In this document: one piece after another, positions 31,206 through 39,687 of the stretch | Numbering within the stretch: the first letter of the stretch is position 1 | Layout: each line of letters starts with the position of its first letter | Origin: Paenibacillus sp. BIC5C1 | GTDB lineage: Bacteria > Bacillota > Bacilli > Paenibacillales > Paenibacillaceae | Assembly (NCBI RefSeq): GCF_032399705.1 | Contig: NZ_CP135922.1 | Location: 4,402,001 to 4,466,000, forward strand | Direction of reading: 5' to 3' | DNA length: 64,000 nt | Position numbers and translations under genes: made by a program | The notes under the pieces: model-generated | Databases searched by the model: none | What the model was told of the DNA's origin: nothing | Seen by the model: only the letters and a program-made list of their open reading frames with translations

Positions 31206-31405
31206 GTTCCACCACTTCTCATCTGTAATATTGCCACTTGTTCATTAGCGAGCTTATGTTGCCAGTTCATCGGCTTCGTTCAATAGGTTAGTACCTTGTA
31301 CTGATTTTCATCCCACATCATCTCACTTATAATGAAACGAAGCAAATGAATTGTTATACGTTAGTACATAGGAAATTCAACATAAACTTCGGAAAGGAGT
31401 TAGGC

Positions 31406-32290
31406 ATGGACAAAAAGTGTATGAGAGTGCTTAAAAAATTATATCTACACGGTAATGGTGAGTATGACAGAGCACGAGGAGTAATGATCTATCAAACGGA
31501 TACATTAACTGCTGCCCAACAGGAGCTACTGACTACACAAGGCTGGGTGGCTAATGATCTGGAGTTAATCCACCATGATAATATCCTTCAACAACTAATC
31601 GCATTCCAGCAGAATGAACGTCTTTCCTGGTCGACGATTACCCAAGCATTTATTGCAGGTGTAGGGGGCAGTTATCCACGAGGCATATCTACGCTTACAA
31701 GCTATCATATGATGATTCACTCGCAGATGCATGCTTATGAGGAGACTGAACAGTTCCTTGCTTGCAAAGTTTGCGGATTCAGTCATAGAGATGAGGGCTG
31801 GGAGAATCTATCCAATATCCGTTACGCCCTGCACCAGGGTTATGATTACAGTGGGTCAAGCGTAGGTGCATACGCCGATCTGACAGAATTCATCAATTTA
31901 CTTGAGAAGGAACCTATTAAACCAACTCCCGAGGATATCACTATATTTAATCAACTGCTTTATATGCTGGATCAAGCTGAAGACGAAGAATCTCCGGGAA
32001 AATTTGAGAAACGACTCACTGCAGAGAAATTGGTCAAAGGACATGCCGGAATTCGCAGAAGTATTCTTCAAGCGCTGTCCAGGGTAGGTGTGCTGCCCAA
32101 TCAGGTTCTCTCCCTAAGTACAGACCATTGGACCAACAACGAACATCTCCTGAACGGTGAGTTGCAGCTTAATAATACCAAAGGCCGATCTGATATGGAG
32201 ATGCCTTGGGCCGGCTGGCAAGGTAAACTTGGCGTCGATTGGGACAAAGCGCGCAAGCTGTTCGGACATGTGATTCAAGTCAAAGATTAA
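31406..32290 (+). CDS. Hypothetical protein, 294 residues
   Basis: I do not recognise this protein. It is soluble, with no signal peptide or membrane helix. Visible features are a possible zinc-like CKVCGF at about 138, a Trp-rich region and a C-terminal GWQGKLGVDWDKARKLFGH segment. The ATG at 31406 has AAAGGAG at the right distance; the frame extends 20 codons further upstream without a ribosome binding site. It lies 74 bases before another unknown gene on the same strand, and a bidirectional terminator follows the pair, so they may be co-transcribed. Confidence 0.7.
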   Translation: MDKKCMRVLKKLYLHGNGEYDRARGVMIYQTDTLTAAQQELLTTQGWVANDLELIHHDNILQQLIAFQQNERLSWSTITQAFIAGVGGSYPRGISTLTSYHMMIHSQMHAYEETEQFLACKVCGFSHRDEGWENLSNIRYALHQGYDYSGSSVGAYADLTEFINLLEKEPIKPTPEDITIFNQLLYMLDQAEDEESPGKFEKRLTAEKLVKGHAGIRRSILQALSRVGVLPNQVLSLSTDHWTNNEHLLNGELQLNNTKGRSDMEMPWAGWQGKLGVDWDKARKLFGHVIQVKD

Positions 32291-32364
32291 ACCCACCAGC
32301 CTGTCATATTTATTGGTTATTGTTTGTCTAAACAGCTTAATCCAGATACAAAGAGGAGTTTACC

Positions 32365-32997
32365 ATGCACAAAGTTAACCAACTTTCAATTGACCCTGAC
32401 GTTCCGAACCACAATACTGGCATTTGGATTGGCGGAGAAATTGCATATGTTACAGAATGGCCGCTTAATCAGGAGAGTCAGCCCTTGTTGCATTTGTTCT
32501 CCATTGATTGCAATACACTTTTACAACAGCTGCATATCCCTTCGTTGCCCCCTGGGAAGTATATTTCGGTCTTCTCCACCTATTCCGCTTCGGAATACTT
32601 TTTGGATCAGGTGTCCTATACGGGGGATGAGCTGGAATGGAAGGAAAATATTCTAGCTGGATGTACATATGTATCCGTATCTTCAGAGCCACTAACTTCC
32701 GTATGTCCCATTCAATCCATTCCTTTATGCGGAGTAGGATTGACCGAAATACAAATAGAGGAACAGGATTTCCCTGCCTTTTCATTTTTCTCTTCCATAC
32801 TACCAAACGGTGCGAAAGGAATTAGCCATCTACTAGAGGACTATCAATTCGTTTGTCAGATTTATTCCGGGGATTTCCCCCATCCCTATCAGGATATACT
32901 GGGACTTTCTGATGCTAATGGATATTTGTTATTACGAAATGGCCTTGCGTCTGCTCATGCACCCTTGGATGGAATTTTCTTTGTGCAGACCGCCTAG
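32365..32997 (+). CDS. Hypothetical protein, weakly DUF1963/YwqG-like
   Basis: A 210-residue soluble protein with a GAGGAG ribosome binding site. The order IGGE, WPLNQESQPLLHLFSIDC, LPPGKYISVFSTY and, near the end, HPYQDILGLSDANGYLLLRN and DGIFFV recalls the DUF1963 (YwqG-like) fold, in which a product name with clear function is lacking; the resemblance is weak and from memory. It follows the 294-residue unknown gene and is closed by a terminator. Confidence 0.6.
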   Translation: MHKVNQLSIDPDVPNHNTGIWIGGEIAYVTEWPLNQESQPLLHLFSIDCNTLLQQLHIPSLPPGKYISVFSTYSASEYFLDQVSYTGDELEWKENILAGCTYVSVSSEPLTSVCPIQSIPLCGVGLTEIQIEEQDFPAFSFFSSILPNGAKGISHLLEDYQFVCQIYSGDFPHPYQDILGLSDANGYLLLRNGLASAHAPLDGIFFVQTA

Positions 32998-33040
32998 TGG
33001 GGACGATAGCCTAGGTTTATTCATAAGGATCTGATCATCA

Positions 33041-33078
33041 AAAAGTTTCCTGTCTATTACAGACAAGGAAACTTTTTT
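33041..33078. terminator. Bidirectional terminator
   Basis: AAGTTTCC and GGAAACTT form the base of a stem with inner TGTCT/AGACA pairing, flanked by AAAAA and TTTTTT. It separates the two unknown genes from the MFS-aminotransferase block. Confidence 0.88.
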
Positions 33079-33259
33079 CGCTTCGACACGAAACCGTTTT
33101 AGGTTGAACATTGTGTGAGAAAGATCATTCATTCGTCAAAAGTTAACATTATTTTACAATAAAAAGCATGTACAATTGCATAATTATGGTATAAGTTATA
33201 TACGAAAGAAACATTATTTACATAATATAAAATTTATATCCATCTTAGGAGGACAACTT

Positions 33260-34468
33260 ATGAGAAGAATTTTCGCTTTAAGCTGCGGTTTTTATCTGTT
33301 AATCGGCATAACCAGCGTTGTACTCGGTGCACTTCTCCCCGTTTTATTGACACATTATGAGCGTGGTTATAGTGATGGCGGATTTTTGTTGTTTCTGCAG
33401 TTCCTCGGTTTTCTTGTCGGGGTGCTCGTTGCTCCTTCCATGACTGCCCGCATCGGCAGAAAATCCATGTTAACCATCGCACTGATCTGTATTGTGGCCG
33501 CCTATGCCGTTCTCGGATTCTTGCCATCCTGGACAGTTGTTCTTCTTCTAACCATTATTGTCGGGTTTGGGTCTGGTATCATTGAGCCCTCCGTTGGTGC
33601 GTTTACGATAGAATTTACGGAAAATCAGAAAGCAGTCGCAATGTCCAAGCTTGATGTGTACTTTGCCCTTGGAGCACTTCTCATCCCGGCAGTCGCTGCC
33701 TTATACATTTGGCTGGATCTTTGGCATCTTACGTTTTATACCGTTTCCGCGTTATCCCTTATTCTCATGCTGTTATGGGTGACCATGCCCACCTCCGCCG
33801 CTTCTTATCTGAAAAAAGCTGGTGAGAATACCGTTGGACATGCAACGGGCAGGGCCCAGTATTCCAGAAAACATATAGGGGTGCTCACAATCTTCGTCAT
33901 TTTTTTCTTCGTTTACATGGGTCTGGAGTTAGGCCTGATGAACTTCCTGCCCTCCATCCTGGTCGAACGATTGCAGCTACAGGAGTCTGTCGCTTCATTA
34001 AGTGTATCCATCCTATGGATTGCCATGATTATCGGTCGTCTTTTTTCCGGAAAAATTGCTGAAGCTGTCAACTACATGCCTTTCCTGATCTGGAGTACGG
34101 TAGGTACACTTCTGTTCGCCGTTGCCATGGTGTTCGTAACAGGCCAATGGGCAACATACCTGCTAATCTTCGGAACCGGATTGTTCATGTCAGGGCTGTT
34201 CTGTATCGCACTGGTCTATGCCAACATTTTAATTCCGGGCATGACTGAGCGCACAACCAGCATCCTGATTGCATCAGGCGGGATCGGTGGCGCCATTCTG
34301 CAGTATGTAACCGGATGGAGCATGAGTGCTTGGCCTGTAGTGAACACGATCTGGATTTTGGCCGGATTTTGCTTGATTCTGCTCCTCACTCTCGTACTCT
34401 CTCATCTCTGGAATGTAAGGAACAGCACCGTAAGTGGAACTCTCGCACATCAGAGTAAAGAGATTTAA
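33260..34468 (+). CDS. MFS transporter
   Basis: A 402-residue membrane protein with 12 predicted helices. The MFS loop 2-3 motif appears as GVLVAPSMTARIGRKSM, and the first helix carries GFYLLIGITSVVLGALLPV. The ATG at 33260 has AGGAGG nine bases upstream; the longer frame begins in AT-rich promoter sequence. It is the first gene of a same-strand block with an aminotransferase (90 bases on), a zinc dehydrogenase and a HAD phosphatase. Export of the pathway's product, or self-protection, is the likely job; uptake of a sugar precursor is the alternative. Confidence 0.92.
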   Translation: MRRIFALSCGFYLLIGITSVVLGALLPVLLTHYERGYSDGGFLLFLQFLGFLVGVLVAPSMTARIGRKSMLTIALICIVAAYAVLGFLPSWTVVLLLTIIVGFGSGIIEPSVGAFTIEFTENQKAVAMSKLDVYFALGALLIPAVAALYIWLDLWHLTFYTVSALSLILMLLWVTMPTSAASYLKKAGENTVGHATGRAQYSRKHIGVLTIFVIFFFVYMGLELGLMNFLPSILVERLQLQESVASLSVSILWIAMIIGRLFSGKIAEAVNYMPFLIWSTVGTLLFAVAMVFVTGQWATYLLIFGTGLFMSGLFCIALVYANILIPGMTERTTSILIASGGIGGAILQYVTGWSMSAWPVVNTIWILAGFCLILLLTLVLSHLWNVRNSTVSGTLAHQSKEI

Positions 34469-34558
34469 ACGTTGCTTCTTGAGAGGGGTGATGCCTGCGT
34501 AATCCGGAATTTTTGATCTTCGTTCAGGCTAGTACATTACATTTATGGAGGGAATCGT

Positions 34559-35797
34559 ATGCAAACCTTAACCAAAAACCGTTTTAGAACCGGACAAGGG
34601 ATTAAGTTGATTGACGATGCAGGCGTTGAATATCTGGATGGTGTATCCGGTACGTTCAACCTGTCACTGGGCTACAATCACCCGCATGTCGTGAGCAAAA
34701 TTCAGGAACAAGTCGGCAATCTGACGCATATGTCTTCCTCCTTCACAGAACCGTATGTGGATGAAGTGCTCGATCATCTGATTGAATATGCTCCAAACGA
34801 TATTAATGCCGGTTGGATGCGGGATATTACGGGCTCAACCGCCAATGAATGTGCCACCAAAATTGCACAGAAATACACGCAATCCACAGACATTATCAGC
34901 CTGTACCTGTCCCATCATGGTCAGACCCAGTTTGCAACAGGGATTTCGGGAAATGCCTTCCGGCGGAAACGGTTTCCAAATTCGGCTGTTGCCAACTCCG
35001 TTCATGTACCTGCACCATACTGCTATCGTTGCCCATTCAAATCCTCAAGCGGAGACTGCGGATATCAATGCGTTGAAGCTATCTCTGATGCTATAGAATA
35101 TGCGAGCTCCGGCTCAGTCGCCTGCATGATCATCGAACCGATCCTCGGCAATGGCGGCAATATCATTCCTCCTGCTGGTTACTTCAAGCGCCTGCGTAAA
35201 CTGTGTGATGAGTACAACATCATTCTCATTGCCGACGAAGTACAGACGGGAATCGGACGTACCGGGTATATGTTCGCCAGCGAACTGTTCGATATCCAGC
35301 CTGACATGATTACTCTTGCCAAAGGTCTCGGTGGTATCGGTGTGCCTGTTGCTGCGGTATTGATGCAGTCCCGATTGAATGTCCTGGAAAAGCATGAACA
35401 TTCCTTCACCTCAGGAAGCAATCTGATCTCTGTAACCGCAGCCAAATCTACCCTGGAGGTTGTATCCGAACCCGGTTTCCTGGATGACGTGAAACGCAAA
35501 GGTGAAATTTTAGGTGGATTACTGCAAGATTTGGCCATGAAATATCCAAGCATTGGTGAAGCTCGCGGAGTCGGCCTGATGTGGGGATTGGAAATGGTGG
35601 GTGACAATAATGAACCAGATACGGATAAAACTAACGCCATTATCGACCGTGCCTTCACGGATGAGCATCTGATTTTAAGAGGATCACGTTACGGCTTCGG
35701 GAACGTAGTTAAGGTCAGACCATCGCTTACCACAACAGAAGATGAGTTGGTTGAAATTGTAGAGCGACTCGATTCGGTGCTTGCCAGCGTGCATTAA
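34559..35797 (+). CDS. Class III PLP-dependent aminotransferase, GabT1-like
   Basis: A 412-residue aminotransferase of fold type I. The phosphate-binding GSTAN (92-96), the PLP-pyridine Asp226 in DEVQTG, and Lys255 in TLAKGLGG are present. An uncommon four-Cys region, PYCYRC (155, 158) followed by DCGYQC (167, 171), suggests a structural metal or disulfide. In Bacillus azasugar clusters GabT1, a class III enzyme, aminates C2 of fructose 6-phosphate; the neighbouring dehydrogenase and phosphatase here would supply the other two steps. Activity on omega-amino acids cannot be excluded. The ATG has GGAGGG upstream. Confidence 0.88.
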   Translation: MQTLTKNRFRTGQGIKLIDDAGVEYLDGVSGTFNLSLGYNHPHVVSKIQEQVGNLTHMSSSFTEPYVDEVLDHLIEYAPNDINAGWMRDITGSTANECATKIAQKYTQSTDIISLYLSHHGQTQFATGISGNAFRRKRFPNSAVANSVHVPAPYCYRCPFKSSSGDCGYQCVEAISDAIEYASSGSVACMIIEPILGNGGNIIPPAGYFKRLRKLCDEYNIILIADEVQTGIGRTGYMFASELFDIQPDMITLAKGLGGIGVPVAAVLMQSRLNVLEKHEHSFTSGSNLISVTAAKSTLEVVSEPGFLDDVKRKGEILGGLLQDLAMKYPSIGEARGVGLMWGLEMVGDNNEPDTDKTNAIIDRAFTDEHLILRGSRYGFGNVVKVRPSLTTTEDELVEIVERLDSVLASVH

Positions 35798-36075
35798 AAC
35801 ATTTCAATGCCATTGCTCGAAGTGGTTGTTTCGGTTACGAATCGTTCTTCTGACCGCTGTTATCCCCGGAATTTATTTGATTTCCCTTTTCCGAGGGGAA
35901 AATCCGTTGATAGCATATGCTTCCGAAGTAGCTTTCTTCCAGAAAGCTTTTAGGCGAACGCTCCGTTTCTCCAGAATCGATTTCGTCCCCTCCACTACTT
36001 TCGTATCTTGTCAGAAACTGTTTTTAAAATGAATCGCTATAGTTACATTTCATATTATTATAAGGAGGTTTTAAC
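35798..36075 (+). other. Non-coding insert inside the aminotransferase-dehydrogenase block
   Basis: A 278-base gap without a convincing gene in an otherwise tightly arranged block. A plus-strand frame covering most of it overlaps the aminotransferase stop and lacks a ribosome binding site. It has hairpins CTTTTCC-GAG-GGGAAAA (about 35888-35902) and AGCTTTC-TTCCA-GAAAGCT followed by TTT (35930-35949), and a purine-poor, T-rich 3' half. It ends just before AAGGAGG of the dehydrogenase gene. I have a weak recollection of similar intergenic sequence elsewhere in Paenibacillus. Confidence 0.45.
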
Positions 36076-37125
36076 ATGTTAGCATTGGTATACAAATCGG
36101 CTTGGGATGTAGCGCTTGAGGAACGGCCTGTTCCGGAAATCGTAAGAGACAATCAGGTGTTGGTTCGAATCCGGGCAACGGGTGTGTGCGGTACCGACCT
36201 CGGTATTGTCAGTGGTAAATATCATGCGGTTCCTTCCGTCATTCTTGGTCATGAGTCTGCCGGGGAAGTCATTGCCGTGGGCTCAGCTGTAACGACACTG
36301 CAGCCGGGCGACCGGGTTGTCATCGATCCTACCTATTATTGCGGGCAATGCGACATGTGCAGAACAGGCAGACAAAATCACTGCACACATAAATCGGTTA
36401 CAGAGACAGGTGTGAGTGCTGACGGTACATTTACGGATTATTATGTAACCGAGGATCGCTTTTTGTATAAATTGAAGGACCATGTGAGCTATGAGGAAGC
36501 GACCCTGACTGAACCACTGAGTTGCATGCTTACAGGTATTAATCAAATCCATCTGCTGCCGAATTTTAGAACAATTATCCTCGGTGCGGGCCCGATTGGC
36601 ATTCTATACAGCTATGCCCTCGCTTCCAAAGGCGTTACTGGCTGTCTCGTCGATATCTCCGAAGAACGCCTGGCTATTGCTGGTTCGATTGCACCGGACC
36701 GCTGGGAGGTTCACTCATCCTTTGAAAATGCGATAGAATCGCTCGCACCCACAACGAATCAGGTTGATATGATTGTGGATACGACAGGCGTCGTGGGCAC
36801 TCAAGTGCTTTCGCAACTCGCCAGCGGCGGTTATCTCATGCTGGTTGGTCTGAGAGATGGAAACACTTCGTTTAATCCCAAGGAAGTTGTGGACCGCAGT
36901 CTGAAAATCATTGGCTCCATCGACTCCCTGGGCACATTCGCAACAGCACATTACATGATTGAGCAACAGATTATCCCGGCGAAAAAAATTATCACCCACT
37001 CGTTCCCTCTGGAGGATTACGAAGAGGCATTCCGCACGCTTGGCTGCGATATTCAGGGACGTACACTTCAAGCTTCTTCCCATGCCATCAAAGTGGTGCT
37101 GCAATCCAGCGGCTCCAGCATCTAA
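36076..37125 (+). CDS. Zinc-dependent alcohol/polyol dehydrogenase, GutB1-like
   Basis: A 349-residue medium-chain dehydrogenase. Catalytic zinc ligands are Cys38, His59 and Glu60 (GHES); structural zinc Cys are at 89, 92, 95 and 103 (CGQCDMC, then C103). The Rossmann nucleotide motif is GAGPIG (170-175). The family includes sorbitol, threonine and inositol-type dehydrogenases. In azasugar clusters a homologue (GutB1) oxidises the primary alcohol of an aminopolyol, which then cyclises. AAGGAGG precedes the ATG. It is followed after 71 bases by the HAD phosphatase gene. Confidence 0.92.
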   Translation: MLALVYKSAWDVALEERPVPEIVRDNQVLVRIRATGVCGTDLGIVSGKYHAVPSVILGHESAGEVIAVGSAVTTLQPGDRVVIDPTYYCGQCDMCRTGRQNHCTHKSVTETGVSADGTFTDYYVTEDRFLYKLKDHVSYEEATLTEPLSCMLTGINQIHLLPNFRTIILGAGPIGILYSYALASKGVTGCLVDISEERLAIAGSIAPDRWEVHSSFENAIESLAPTTNQVDMIVDTTGVVGTQVLSQLASGGYLMLVGLRDGNTSFNPKEVVDRSLKIIGSIDSLGTFATAHYMIEQQIIPAKKIITHSFPLEDYEEAFRTLGCDIQGRTLQASSHAIKVVLQSSGSSI

Positions 37126-37196
37126 TGTAGCAAGTTAATCATGATTGAGATAAATTAGAGATAATTGCTTACAGAATTCTGGAGGAGGAATACAAC

Positions 37197-37934
37197 ATGG
37201 TAGCAAACAAGGAGTTTGACGGGCTGGGAGAGTCGAAGGATGACAGCATTCAGGCGGTCATTTTTGACATGGATGGCGTACTGATTGACAGCGAACCGAT
37301 TTATTTCGAGATTGAGCGCAGTTCTTTTGCCCATTTTGGAGCAAAGATGACGGAGGCGGAACATCACACCTATGTTGGAGTTACGCTGGAATCGATGTGG
37401 CGGCAAGTGTTGGATAAGCACCAGTTGACGGCTACCGTGGAAGAAGCCCTCGCCTACCATCAACATAATGTGATGCAGACGATGCTGGCTCACCCGAAGC
37501 TGACAGCCATGCCTTCTGTGGAACGCTGGTTAAGCTGGCTGCATGAGCAGCGCATTCCGATAGCCGTTGCTTCTTCATCTCCACGTGCACTGATCGATCT
37601 GATCATGGACAAGACCGGACTTGGAAAATACTTTGAGGTCCGAATGACAGGTGAGGAAGTCACGAACGGCAAACCGGCTCCGGATATTTTCCTGACTACA
37701 GCTGAAATGATTGGAGCATCCCCTTCGAACTGTCTTGTCATTGAGGATTCGCGCAATGGTGTTCAGGCCGCCAAAAGTGCAGGCATGCGCTGCATCGGAT
37801 ACCGTAATCCGGGATCAGGTGACCAGGACTTATCCAAAGCCGATCTTCAGATTTCCAGTTACGATGAGTTATGGACGTTGAAAGATACACTTCCGTTGGA
37901 AGGCAGATCGCCAAGCTTGTCAGAAATAAAATAA
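37197..37934 (+). CDS. HAD hydrolase, beta-phosphoglucomutase-like subfamily
   Basis: A 245-residue HAD phosphatase. The nucleophile Asp24 and acid/base Asp26 are in FDMDGVLIDSE, motif II Ser in ASSSPRAL, the Lys in NGKPAPD and motif IV acids in VIEDSRNG. An alpha-helical cap of subfamily IA lies at about 35-105. Beta-phosphoglucomutase and sugar-phosphate phosphatases share this layout. Beside an aminotransferase and a polyol dehydrogenase it could remove the phosphate from an amino-polyol phosphate. The ATG has GGAGGAGG upstream. The operon terminator follows. Confidence 0.92.
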   Translation: MVANKEFDGLGESKDDSIQAVIFDMDGVLIDSEPIYFEIERSSFAHFGAKMTEAEHHTYVGVTLESMWRQVLDKHQLTATVEEALAYHQHNVMQTMLAHPKLTAMPSVERWLSWLHEQRIPIAVASSSPRALIDLIMDKTGLGKYFEVRMTGEEVTNGKPAPDIFLTTAEMIGASPSNCLVIEDSRNGVQAAKSAGMRCIGYRNPGSGDQDLSKADLQISSYDELWTLKDTLPLEGRSPSLSEIK

Positions 37935-37947
37935 GACGAAAATAAAC

Positions 37948-37993
37948 AACCCAAACGGCTTCAATTCAATGGAATTGGAGCCGTTTGGGTTTT
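37948..37993 (+). terminator. Terminator of the MFS-aminotransferase-dehydrogenase-phosphatase block
   Basis: AACCCAAACGGCT pairs with AGCCGTTTGGGTT with inner CAATTC/GAATTG pairing, then TTTTG. The long perfect base makes this a strong terminator. Confidence 0.93.
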
Positions 37994-38036
37994 GCTTGCT
38001 GCAAATTTAACACAATAACGCAAACTTGAATATCGT

Positions 38037-38219
38037 CTAGACCGAAATATCCAGACTTCCACCCAAATTAGGATGAGCAGCCGGAACCGACTTTAACATT
38101 TCTGTTAGTTGTTGACCTTGCTGCTCTGCCATGTCTTTCGACATTGACATGACTTGCAAGCTCGCCGACTGCGCCACTGAGACTTGACTCATAGCCATTG
38201 ATAATGCTGCAATATCCAT
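38037..38219 (-). CDS. YjfB family putative motility protein
   Basis: A 60-residue protein matching the YjfB family (putative motility protein): MDIAALSMAMSQ start, central helical Ala/Ser/Met region and acidic ending LGGSLDISV. The ATG at 38219 has AAAGGAG at the proper distance; a GTG three codons earlier overlaps it. In B. subtilis yjfB is under the flagellar sigma factor SigD. A matching -10-like ACCGATAT lies upstream here. Precise function is unknown. Confidence 0.85.
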   Translation of the reverse strand: MDIAALSMAMSQVSVAQSASLQVMSMSKDMAEQQGQQLTEMLKSVPAAHPNLGGSLDISV

Positions 38220-38264
38220 GTTCTGCACTCCTTTCGTTTTCTAGTCAATAAGCATACCTACTTT

Positions 38265-38272
38265 ATATCGGT
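38265..38272 (-). promoter_or_regulatory. SigD-like -10 element upstream of the yjfB-like gene
   Basis: On the minus strand ACCGATAT resembles the SigD -10 consensus GCCGATAT, 46 bases before the start codon. The matching -35 TAAA is not clear (ATAT-rich sequence instead), so this is tentative. Confidence 0.4.
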
Positions 38273-38412
38273 CAGATGGGAGAAAATATGTAATTCTCTC
38301 CTTCATGTTCAAAAGCTTAACATTCGCCCTCCCGCAATCCTTTTGAAGATGCTATAACAAAACAAAACATCAACAAATACGTATATATTAAAATCAAGAG
38401 GGAGGGTAGCTT

Positions 38413-38511
38413 ATGAACGGGAAAAAATTTGTTATCCTTTTTTCAGTCATTGCCGGAATTTGCATCGGGTTATTTGGTGGATTTATCTATTGGATCCTGT
38501 CAGGAGTCTAG
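38413..38511 (+). CDS. Small single-helix membrane protein, 32 residues
   Basis: ATG at 38413 with GGAGGG eight bases upstream opens a 32-residue frame: a basic N-terminus (MNGKKF) followed by one hydrophobic helix (VILFSVIAGICIGLFGGF) and a short IYWILSGV tail. It was found by eye and is shorter than a normal ORF cut-off. An AT-rich promoter-like stretch (TATATATTAAAAT) lies just upstream. Such one-helix peptides often regulate membrane complexes or act as fluid-membrane stress peptides; nothing more can be said. Confidence 0.65.
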   Translation: MNGKKFVILFSVIAGICIGLFGGFIYWILSGV

Positions 38512-38534
38512 AACATTACTATGACAAATAGTCT

Positions 38535-38795
38535 CTAACCTAAGTATTTCAATACCCCATCTGTTTCCTTGGCTCTCAGGGTGACTTTGGCTAATAACTG
38601 TTCCGGTTGATGAAAATCCTCTTTGATCTCTGCCATCAATTCCTTTACCATCTCTTCCAGTTGCGCTAATGTTGTTTCTTTAGGTAAAATACGAGTTCTT
38701 GCGATCTCATGTTTACGAAAAGAATCATCGTACAATGGTACTGTTTCCTGACCGAATGCACTAATTTCCAGCTCAACTTTTATTCCTTCCGACAT
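38535..38795 (-). CDS. Hypothetical protein, 86 residues
   Basis: A small soluble protein, charged, that I do not recognise. It carries a beta-rich N-terminal half (IKVELEISAFGQETVPLYDD) and a helical C-terminal half (LAQLEEMVKELMAEIKEDF). GAGGTG lies before the ATG at 38795, which is three codons inside the longest frame. It follows the Cof-type gene's strand orientation but its start is adjacent to that gene's stop (31 bases), so they could be co-transcribed. Confidence 0.7.
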   Translation of the reverse strand: MSEGIKVELEISAFGQETVPLYDDSFRKHEIARTRILPKETTLAQLEEMVKELMAEIKEDFHQPEQLLAKVTLRAKETDGVLKYLG

Positions 38796-38826
38796 TGGTT
38801 TCACCTCTTCACTCGTTTAAGGCTGA

Positions 38827-39687
38827 TTAGGCCTCAATCAATCCATATTTCACAAAACTGTGGTACAACCCATCTTCTTCAATAGTTCCAGTTATATCAT
38901 CTGCAATGACTTTGAGACCTGGCTTGGCATTACCCATCGCAATCCCTACACCACAATACTCCAGCATCTCCGCATCATTCATGCCGTCCCCAATGGCAAG
39001 TGTATCTTCACGTGACATACCCAGATGCTCCAATAAATCTGCAATAGCAATGGCTTTATGAATGCCCGGGATCATCAGTTCACCGCTTCCTTCACCAAAG
39101 ATAGGTACCGTACACTGAATGACTTCGAATTTGCCTTCAAACTCCTGCTTGATTCGATCGAACGGAATCGTGGAGCTTTCCAGAAAACAAACTTTGTTTA
39201 CGTCGTCCTTGTATAAATCGGCTTCACCATATGTCAAACCAGCAATAAACGGATGTGGCTTTTGTTCTTTTTTTGCTCTGGCATCGGGATCATTCTCTAT
39301 ATCACCATAGATGCGGCGTTCCAGATGAGATTGAAGATGGCTACTCGCGTACAAGGCCGAATTGGATTCCAAATAGAAGTCAATCTGGTGTTCATTGAAA
39401 AAATCGACCATATGCCGTACATCTTCTGCCGTTACCCTTTTGTGATACAGCACATCCTGACCGAACTCAACATAGCCACCACCGGCACCGATCAGACCGT
39501 CAAATCCTACGTCCCATATAGAATCGTAGATTTCCGCCTTCGATCGTCCTGTACATAAATAAAGCAGATGTCCATTTTCACGTGCCTGTTTGCACGCCTG
39601 TTGTGCGGACACCGGAATGTTGCCGTCATCATCTACCAATGTGCCATCAATATCTATAAAAACAATCTTTCGATTCGTTGTGTTCAT
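38827..39687 (-). CDS. Cof-type HAD hydrolase
   Basis: A 286-residue HAD subfamily IIB phosphatase. Motif I is DIDGTLVDDDG (12-22, nucleophile Asp), motif II is CTGRSKAE, the Lys is in MIPGIHKAIAI and motif IV is GDGMNDAEML. The C2-type cap domain lies between motifs II and III. Members act on sugar phosphates, pyridoxal phosphate or nucleotides; the substrate is not predictable. GGGGGC precedes the ATG. It lies upstream of the 86-residue hypothetical gene on the same strand. Confidence 0.93.
   Translation of the reverse strand: MNTTNRKIVFIDIDGTLVDDDGNIPVSAQQACKQARENGHLLYLCTGRSKAEIYDSIWDVGFDGLIGAGGGYVEFGQDVLYHKRVTAEDVRHMVDFFNEHQIDFYLESNSALYASSHLQSHLERRIYGDIENDPDARAKKEQKPHPFIAGLTYGEADLYKDDVNKVCFLESSTIPFDRIKQEFEGKFEVIQCTVPIFGEGSGELMIPGIHKAIAIADLLEHLGMSREDTLAIGDGMNDAEMLEYCGVGIAMGNAKPGLKVIADDITGTIEEDGLYHSFVKYGLIEA

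Follow-up and report, generated by a model that had tools for sequence, protein, structure and literature searches.

A probable azasugar gene cluster of the Paenibacillus type, with a linked transporter, in Paenibacillus sp. BIC5C1

The locus considered here raises the question of which pathway is encoded by four genes lying in tandem on the forward strand of a 64,000-nucleotide stretch (the window) of the Paenibacillus sp. BIC5C1 genome (7.08 Mb, single contig). Based on the list of open reading frames (ORFs) and on family searches, these are, in order, a major facilitator superfamily (MFS) transporter, a class III aminotransferase, a zinc dehydrogenase and a HAD phosphatase. The initial annotation read them as a possible variant of the azasugar genes of Bacillus, in which the HAD phosphatase had replaced the usual one. 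We assign a probability of roughly 0.88 to their being the azasugar three-gene cluster in its Paenibacillus form, accompanied by a transporter. The cluster is already known: it is the usual Paenibacillus type, which has been described in close relatives.

The three-gene cluster is defined, in the sections of Beal and Horenstein 2021 (PMC8382821) drawn on here, by an aminotransferase of PF00202, a dehydrogenase of PF00107/PF08240/PF16912 and a phosphatase of PF13419, PF00459 or PF12710. The same sections give aminotransferase–dehydrogenase–HAD phosphatase as the form of Paenibacillus and Chitinophaga (135 Paenibacillus hits), and an MFS gene as a common associate of the clusters. In the window, PF00202, PF00107/PF08240/PF16912 and PF13419 genes are clustered, and their order, with a HAD phosphatase, is that of the Paenibacillus/Chitinophaga subtype. 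The arrangement of the Bacillus gabT1–yktC1–gutB1 subtype is not seen: the HAD gene comes after the dehydrogenase, and no phosphatase of the inositol-monophosphatase fold lies in the middle. The initial annotation was right about the order of the three enzymes, which agrees with the ORF coordinates and Pfam families, and about the fold of the phosphatase, which belongs to PF13419 and has no BLAST match to the Bacillus-type PF00459 protein. Its claim of a variant cluster does not stand: the HAD order and the MFS association are both in print (PMC8382821), and both an eight-gene cluster of P. polymyxa SC2 and a putative fucose permease gene near its gabT1 have been published (PMC8466323). A new phosphatase swap is rejected, the HAD form being part of the earlier description (PMC8382821).

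Among the enzymes compared, the nearest named relatives of the aminotransferase are those of P. taichungensis and P. pabuli (99% identity). It is 83% identical to the P. polymyxa enzyme, 60% to that of C. pinensis and 48% over 400 residues to that of the B. velezensis/amyloliquefaciens type (L084, assigned through the neighbourhood described in the sections used of PMC8382821); the last value lies above the level of about 40% or more used for GabT1. A first tree contains 34 rows: the window enzyme, 18 of 80 loci, four Bacillus-type or similar enzymes, three loci from plasmids and eight further class III enzymes encoded by the strain itself. According to NCBIfam, the last are RocD, ArgD, BioA, two HemL, two members of the unnamed PRK07678 group and one without a match at the limit used; 4-aminobutyrate (GABA) and diaminobutyrate enzymes are absent from its rows. 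The window enzyme falls in an 11-row Paenibacillus clade (100/100), nested in a 23-row clade (97/96 against the 11 outside rows) with members from Paenibacillus, Chitinophaga, Pedobacter/Mucilaginibacter, Myxococcus, the Bacillus type, Streptomyces and Erwinia. The second tree (39 rows) adds GabT of E. coli and three and four enzymes over the cut-offs of the GABA and diaminobutyrate models, respectively, and drops three own rows, both HemL and the enzyme without a match. Here the 23-row clade is supported at 100/100 against 16 outside rows, and the GABA, diaminobutyrate and E. coli GabT rows are all outside. The tree program warned of long branches among the outside rows, in Erwinia and in E. 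coli GabT, and the placement of Erwinia is the least sure within the clade.

At position 119 His is found throughout the 23-row clade, and either Phe or Tyr in each of the 19 outside rows (11 of the first set and eight added); in the P. polymyxa enzyme, His at this position presumably alters the kinetics. The motifs DEVQTG and AKGLGG are present in the alignment, and we take these, like the motifs named below for the other enzymes, to have catalytic roles, AKGLGG holding the pyridoxal phosphate lysine. Also, residues 130–158 match the published azasugar aminotransferase consensus SGNXFRXXXFPNXXXXXXXLXVPXPYCXRC (PMC8382821) at 15 of its 16 fixed positions (Val replaces Leu at the other), if the variable run may be one residue shorter; the P. 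polymyxa O2.11 enzyme matches at all 16, with the same length as in the window enzyme. The enzyme is found in the GabT1 clade together with the B. velezensis type and apart from GABA and diaminobutyrate enzymes and the strain's own ornithine, acetylornithine and BioA enzymes; no grouping with omega-amino acid or diaminobutyrate enzymes is seen in the second tree.

Concerning conservation, the aminotransferase search over 149 genomes (the own genome and relatives) found matches at 1e-60 in 48, of which 46, with the own genome included, share ≥74% identity, and many genomes of the same genus are without a match; among 398 genomes of the class, 18 have a match at 1e-90, again with the own genome counted. 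The 47 relatives examined are stretches of about 16 kb, 45 from the first search and two more from the second; the count leaves out the own genome (L083) and L084–L087, whose aminotransferases are 47–49% identical. In all 47 relatives the dehydrogenase gene lies after that of the aminotransferase; an MFS gene stands ahead of the aminotransferase gene on the same strand in 46 (the exception, L082, has only a partial aminotransferase match), and the HAD gene comes directly after the dehydrogenase, giving the full four-gene order, in 43. The neighbouring genes are conserved. Three of L084–L087 have a dehydrogenase of 33–34% and an MFS protein of 35–38% identity, L086 has neither, and a HAD protein is found in none. 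The phosphatase shifts position or changes within Paenibacillus. As separate observations, in P. tyrfis (L156, 2953–3615) a HAD gene, 46% identical, precedes the MFS gene, the ORF after the dehydrogenase in P. caseinilyticus (L159, 7300–8055) has only a weak 70-residue HAD match, and the aminotransferase match in P. ehimensis (L193) begins only at residue 83, so that the gene may be truncated.

The other three proteins fit the same family pattern. The dehydrogenase contains the ADH_N, Glu_dehyd_C and ADH_zinc_N domains and is 88, 43 and 33% identical to those of P. polymyxa, C. pinensis and the B. velezensis type, respectively; CGTD, GHE and four Cys positions are common to it and the four others aligned, and the P. 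polymyxa homologue is annotated as 2-amino-2-deoxy-D-mannitol dehydrogenase GutB1. The HAD protein belongs to TIGR02009 (beta-phosphoglucomutase family) with 154.9 bits, barely over the cut-off of 153.35. Its second-best NCBIfam match, hexitol phosphatase HxpB (124 bits, under the cut-off of 191), lends weak support to a possible tie with hexitol phosphates; the likening of the aminated product to mannitol phosphate is our own comparison, made by analogy. The HAD motifs DxD, SSS, Lys and EDS were recognised by eye, and the protein is 74% identical over 217 residues to that of P. polymyxa. The MFS protein is 70% identical to that of P. polymyxa and 35% to that of the B. velezensis type.

What the analysis shows for this strain is the gene content and gene order, how well they are conserved, the families of the proteins and their key residues. 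In the proposed pathway the aminotransferase would place an amino group onto C2 of fructose 6-phosphate, giving 2-amino-2-deoxy-D-mannitol 6-phosphate, the probable substrate from which the HAD phosphatase would remove the phosphate. Oxidation of C6 by the zinc dehydrogenase would give an amino aldehyde that closes spontaneously to mannojirimycin, from which deoxynojirimycin-type glycosidase inhibitors derive; export of the product may fall to the MFS protein. Amination at C2, dephosphorylation, C6 oxidation and spontaneous ring closure form the pathway as described in the sections used of PMC8382821. We infer each chemical step, and an azasugar product, for BIC5C1 from its relatives. In the passages of PMC10904899 drawn on here, GutB1 of P. 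polymyxa and an engineered transaminase yield mannojirimycin from fructose in vitro, GabT1 of P. polymyxa SC2 is quoted at 4.9 nmol/min/mg, and the GutB1 gene is 1050 nt long by its coordinates, the same as the dehydrogenase gene of the window.

Several points weigh against this pathway. The mannojirimycin cascade supports the dehydrogenase step only, because its transaminase was another one, acting on free fructose, and its product was quantified by glucosidase inhibition (PMC10904899). No genes for epimerisation or for deoxynojirimycin reduction are recognised in the cluster. The HAD gene is absent or elsewhere in four of the 47 relatives: L078, L080 and L082 have no HAD match at 1e-15 in their ~16-kb stretches, and L081 carries it (47% identity) on the upstream side of the MFS gene. 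The HAD protein of C. pinensis (L137), like its MFS protein, has no BLAST match to that of the window at 1e-3. Membership of the clade alone is no proof of azasugar synthesis, because it is also seen without the full gene set: L086 lies inside the clade and no similar dehydrogenase, phosphatase or MFS gene was found beside it, in the plasmid member from Streptomyces the dehydrogenase is followed by a glycosyltransferase and not by an annotated phosphatase, and the validamycin enzyme ValM also clusters with the azasugar aminotransferases (PMC8382821). Finally, the aminotransferase is nearer to that of C. pinensis, a species which makes the pyrrolidine azasugar DAB-1 (PMC8382821), than to the Bacillus type.

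It is because of this last difference (60% vs 48%) that we keep a second reading, in which a different ketose phosphate is the substrate of these three enzymes and the product, like that of C. pinensis, is a pyrrolidine azasugar, for instance DAB-1; the gene order is the same as in that species, and the dehydrogenase is likewise nearer to its homologue there (43% vs 33%). We consider it unlikely: the far closer P. polymyxa dehydrogenase has been used to oxidise 2-amino-2-deoxymannitol (PMC10904899), and P. polymyxa, whose strain DSM 365 is among the known producers (PMC8382821), is given as a producer of deoxynojirimycin (PMC8382821, PMC10904899). Close relatives of the aminotransferase are automatically named aspartate or 4-aminobutyrate aminotransferase, as would suit a catabolic or amino-acid cluster in which genes for an unrelated polyol dehydrogenase and phosphatase adjoin that of an omega-amino acid or diaminobutyrate aminotransferase. 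The trees, the diagnostic residues and the conserved neighbours make such a cluster very improbable, and the aminotransferase reaches no NCBIfam cut-off among the 25 listed of 69 matched models, those for GABA and diaminobutyrate included; an omega-amino acid function is rejected on the trees together with the diagnostic residues. The Paenibacillus azasugar cluster is the preferred reading, and the GabT1/GutB1-type assignment of the initial annotation holds.

The features are presented in Table 1. The MFS start is placed at ATG 33260, which is preceded by an AGGAGG-like site; the listed ORF begins at TTG 33176. The intergenic gaps are 90 bp (MFS–aminotransferase), 278 bp (aminotransferase–dehydrogenase) and 71 bp (dehydrogenase–HAD). 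Four genes on one strand with a terminator at their end had been noted initially, and this is borne out by the ORFs, the families and a strong hairpin 3' of the HAD gene, which has a 19-bp stem (fold of 37930–38000). Simple scans gave no excess of promoter-like sites in 32900–38850 (12 vs a shuffle mean of 10.4) or of terminators (3 vs 5.7), and this hairpin is absent from the terminator list. We assume that the genes from MFS to HAD are on a single transcript. Upstream, the ORFs at 31346–32290 and 32365–32997 have no Pfam or NCBIfam match at 1e-3; they adjoin the cluster in only some close relatives.

Table 1. Features of the cluster in the window, and examples of DUF1349 genes at related loci (positions within each locus)
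Feature	Position	Strand	Details
MFS transporter, possible azasugar exporter	33260..34468	+	402 aa; PF07690 9e-32
GabT1-type class III aminotransferase, predicted fructose 6-phosphate aminotransferase	34559..35797	+	412 aa; PF00202 2.5e-79
Dispersed modular repeat, aminotransferase–dehydrogenase spacer	35819..35998	+	limits approximate, by eye from inverted ends GAAGTGG / CCACTAC
GutB1-type zinc aminopolyol dehydrogenase	36076..37125	+	349 aa; PF08240 (1.3e-30)/PF16912/PF00107
HAD phosphatase, beta-phosphoglucomutase family, predicted aminohexitol-phosphate phosphatase	37197..37934	+	245 aa; HAD_2 PF13419 3.5e-35
Intrinsic-terminator-like hairpin after HAD gene	37949..37990	+	fold -33.7 kcal/mol, z -8.8
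DUF1349, L209	9528-10139		
DUF1349, L210	8488-9045		
DUF1349, L211	9171-9749		

The repeat in the aminotransferase–dehydrogenase spacer, which the initial annotation did not mention, looks like the less familiar feature of the cluster. It has at least 43 BLAST matches in the genome (40 of 96 first-look candidates scored), and its 23-base first module has 91 matches with up to three mismatches (control 0). A match at 1e-3 is found in 89 of 148 Paenibacillaceae genomes and 12 of 19 genera, many of those outside the genus being weak (up to five candidates scored per genome). By a simple rule, 29 of the 30 copies fetched (of 43) overlap no ORF of about 150 aa or more. There are also differences among relatives: in L039, L043 and L046, which are close, the spacer is 33–34 bp and the repeat is absent, while L042, L050, L052, L054, L056 and L060 lack, by eye, an inner hairpin of about 37 bp, which in some genomic copies appears at a second position (also by eye). 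An RNA element was considered for the spacer. No Rfam match was found up to E 1 in 31300–38850, and the fold of the whole spacer is no more stable than those of its shuffles (z -0.53; 52 of 200 shuffles do as well); local hairpins are recognisable.

Lagging-strand transposition was considered as the cause of the repeat's orientation: 72 of the 91 module matches obey a replichore rule (genome cut at its midpoint; dnaA at 328), and Y1_Tnp has seven matches in the genome, one with internal stops. However, where the flanking ORFs are in tandem (19 copies), 17 copies run antisense to both, two that break the rule among them, so that gene orientation may explain the pattern; the copy in the window is one of the other two. 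Tentatively, this may be a modular Paenibacillaceae family of hairpin repeats, intergenic and usually antisense, present or absent at this site among close relatives, which could set the levels of the dehydrogenase and phosphatase against that of the aminotransferase at the transcript level; we hold this as a whole to be doubtful. The repeat may deserve its own study.

A match to DUF1349 (PF07081) is found in 31 of 135 loci, from Paenibacillus, Chitinophaga/Pedobacter, Streptomyces and Erwinia; these loci are not independent, as several genomes occur twice, the own loci of three queries are counted and 12 (L197–L208) fall outside the azasugar type. DUF1349 matches number one to six in each of 60 Paenibacillus genomes, some of them weak. 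PF07081 is listed among the phosphatase families in the part used of PMC8382821, which looks like a neighbour taken for a phosphatase. DUF1349 is rejected as a cluster member in BIC5C1, with no match in the strain's own 16 kb (L083).

The locus adds a well-conserved example to the published azasugar pathway, with the HAD phosphatase and linked transporter that are usual in Paenibacillus, and its enzymes may serve as homologues for the preparation of mannojirimycin-type inhibitors. Compared with known systems, P. polymyxa O2.11 (L209, plasmid record) agrees with the window in the four genes, their order and their strand (70, 83, 88 and 74% identity from MFS to HAD), whereas its spacer before the dehydrogenase is 34 bp long; uxuA, mannitol dehydrogenase and SDR genes lie upstream, and a DUF1349 gene lies downstream on the other strand. 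The B. velezensis/amyloliquefaciens type has a homologous aminotransferase, dehydrogenase and MFS protein, but its order is aminotransferase–phosphatase–dehydrogenase, its phosphatase is of PF00459 and its MFS gene is divergent. The C. pinensis type (L137, strain YS-16) has the order aminotransferase–dehydrogenase–HAD-like gene, as in the window, with an MFS-like ORF last, after the HAD-like gene (both recognised by eye).

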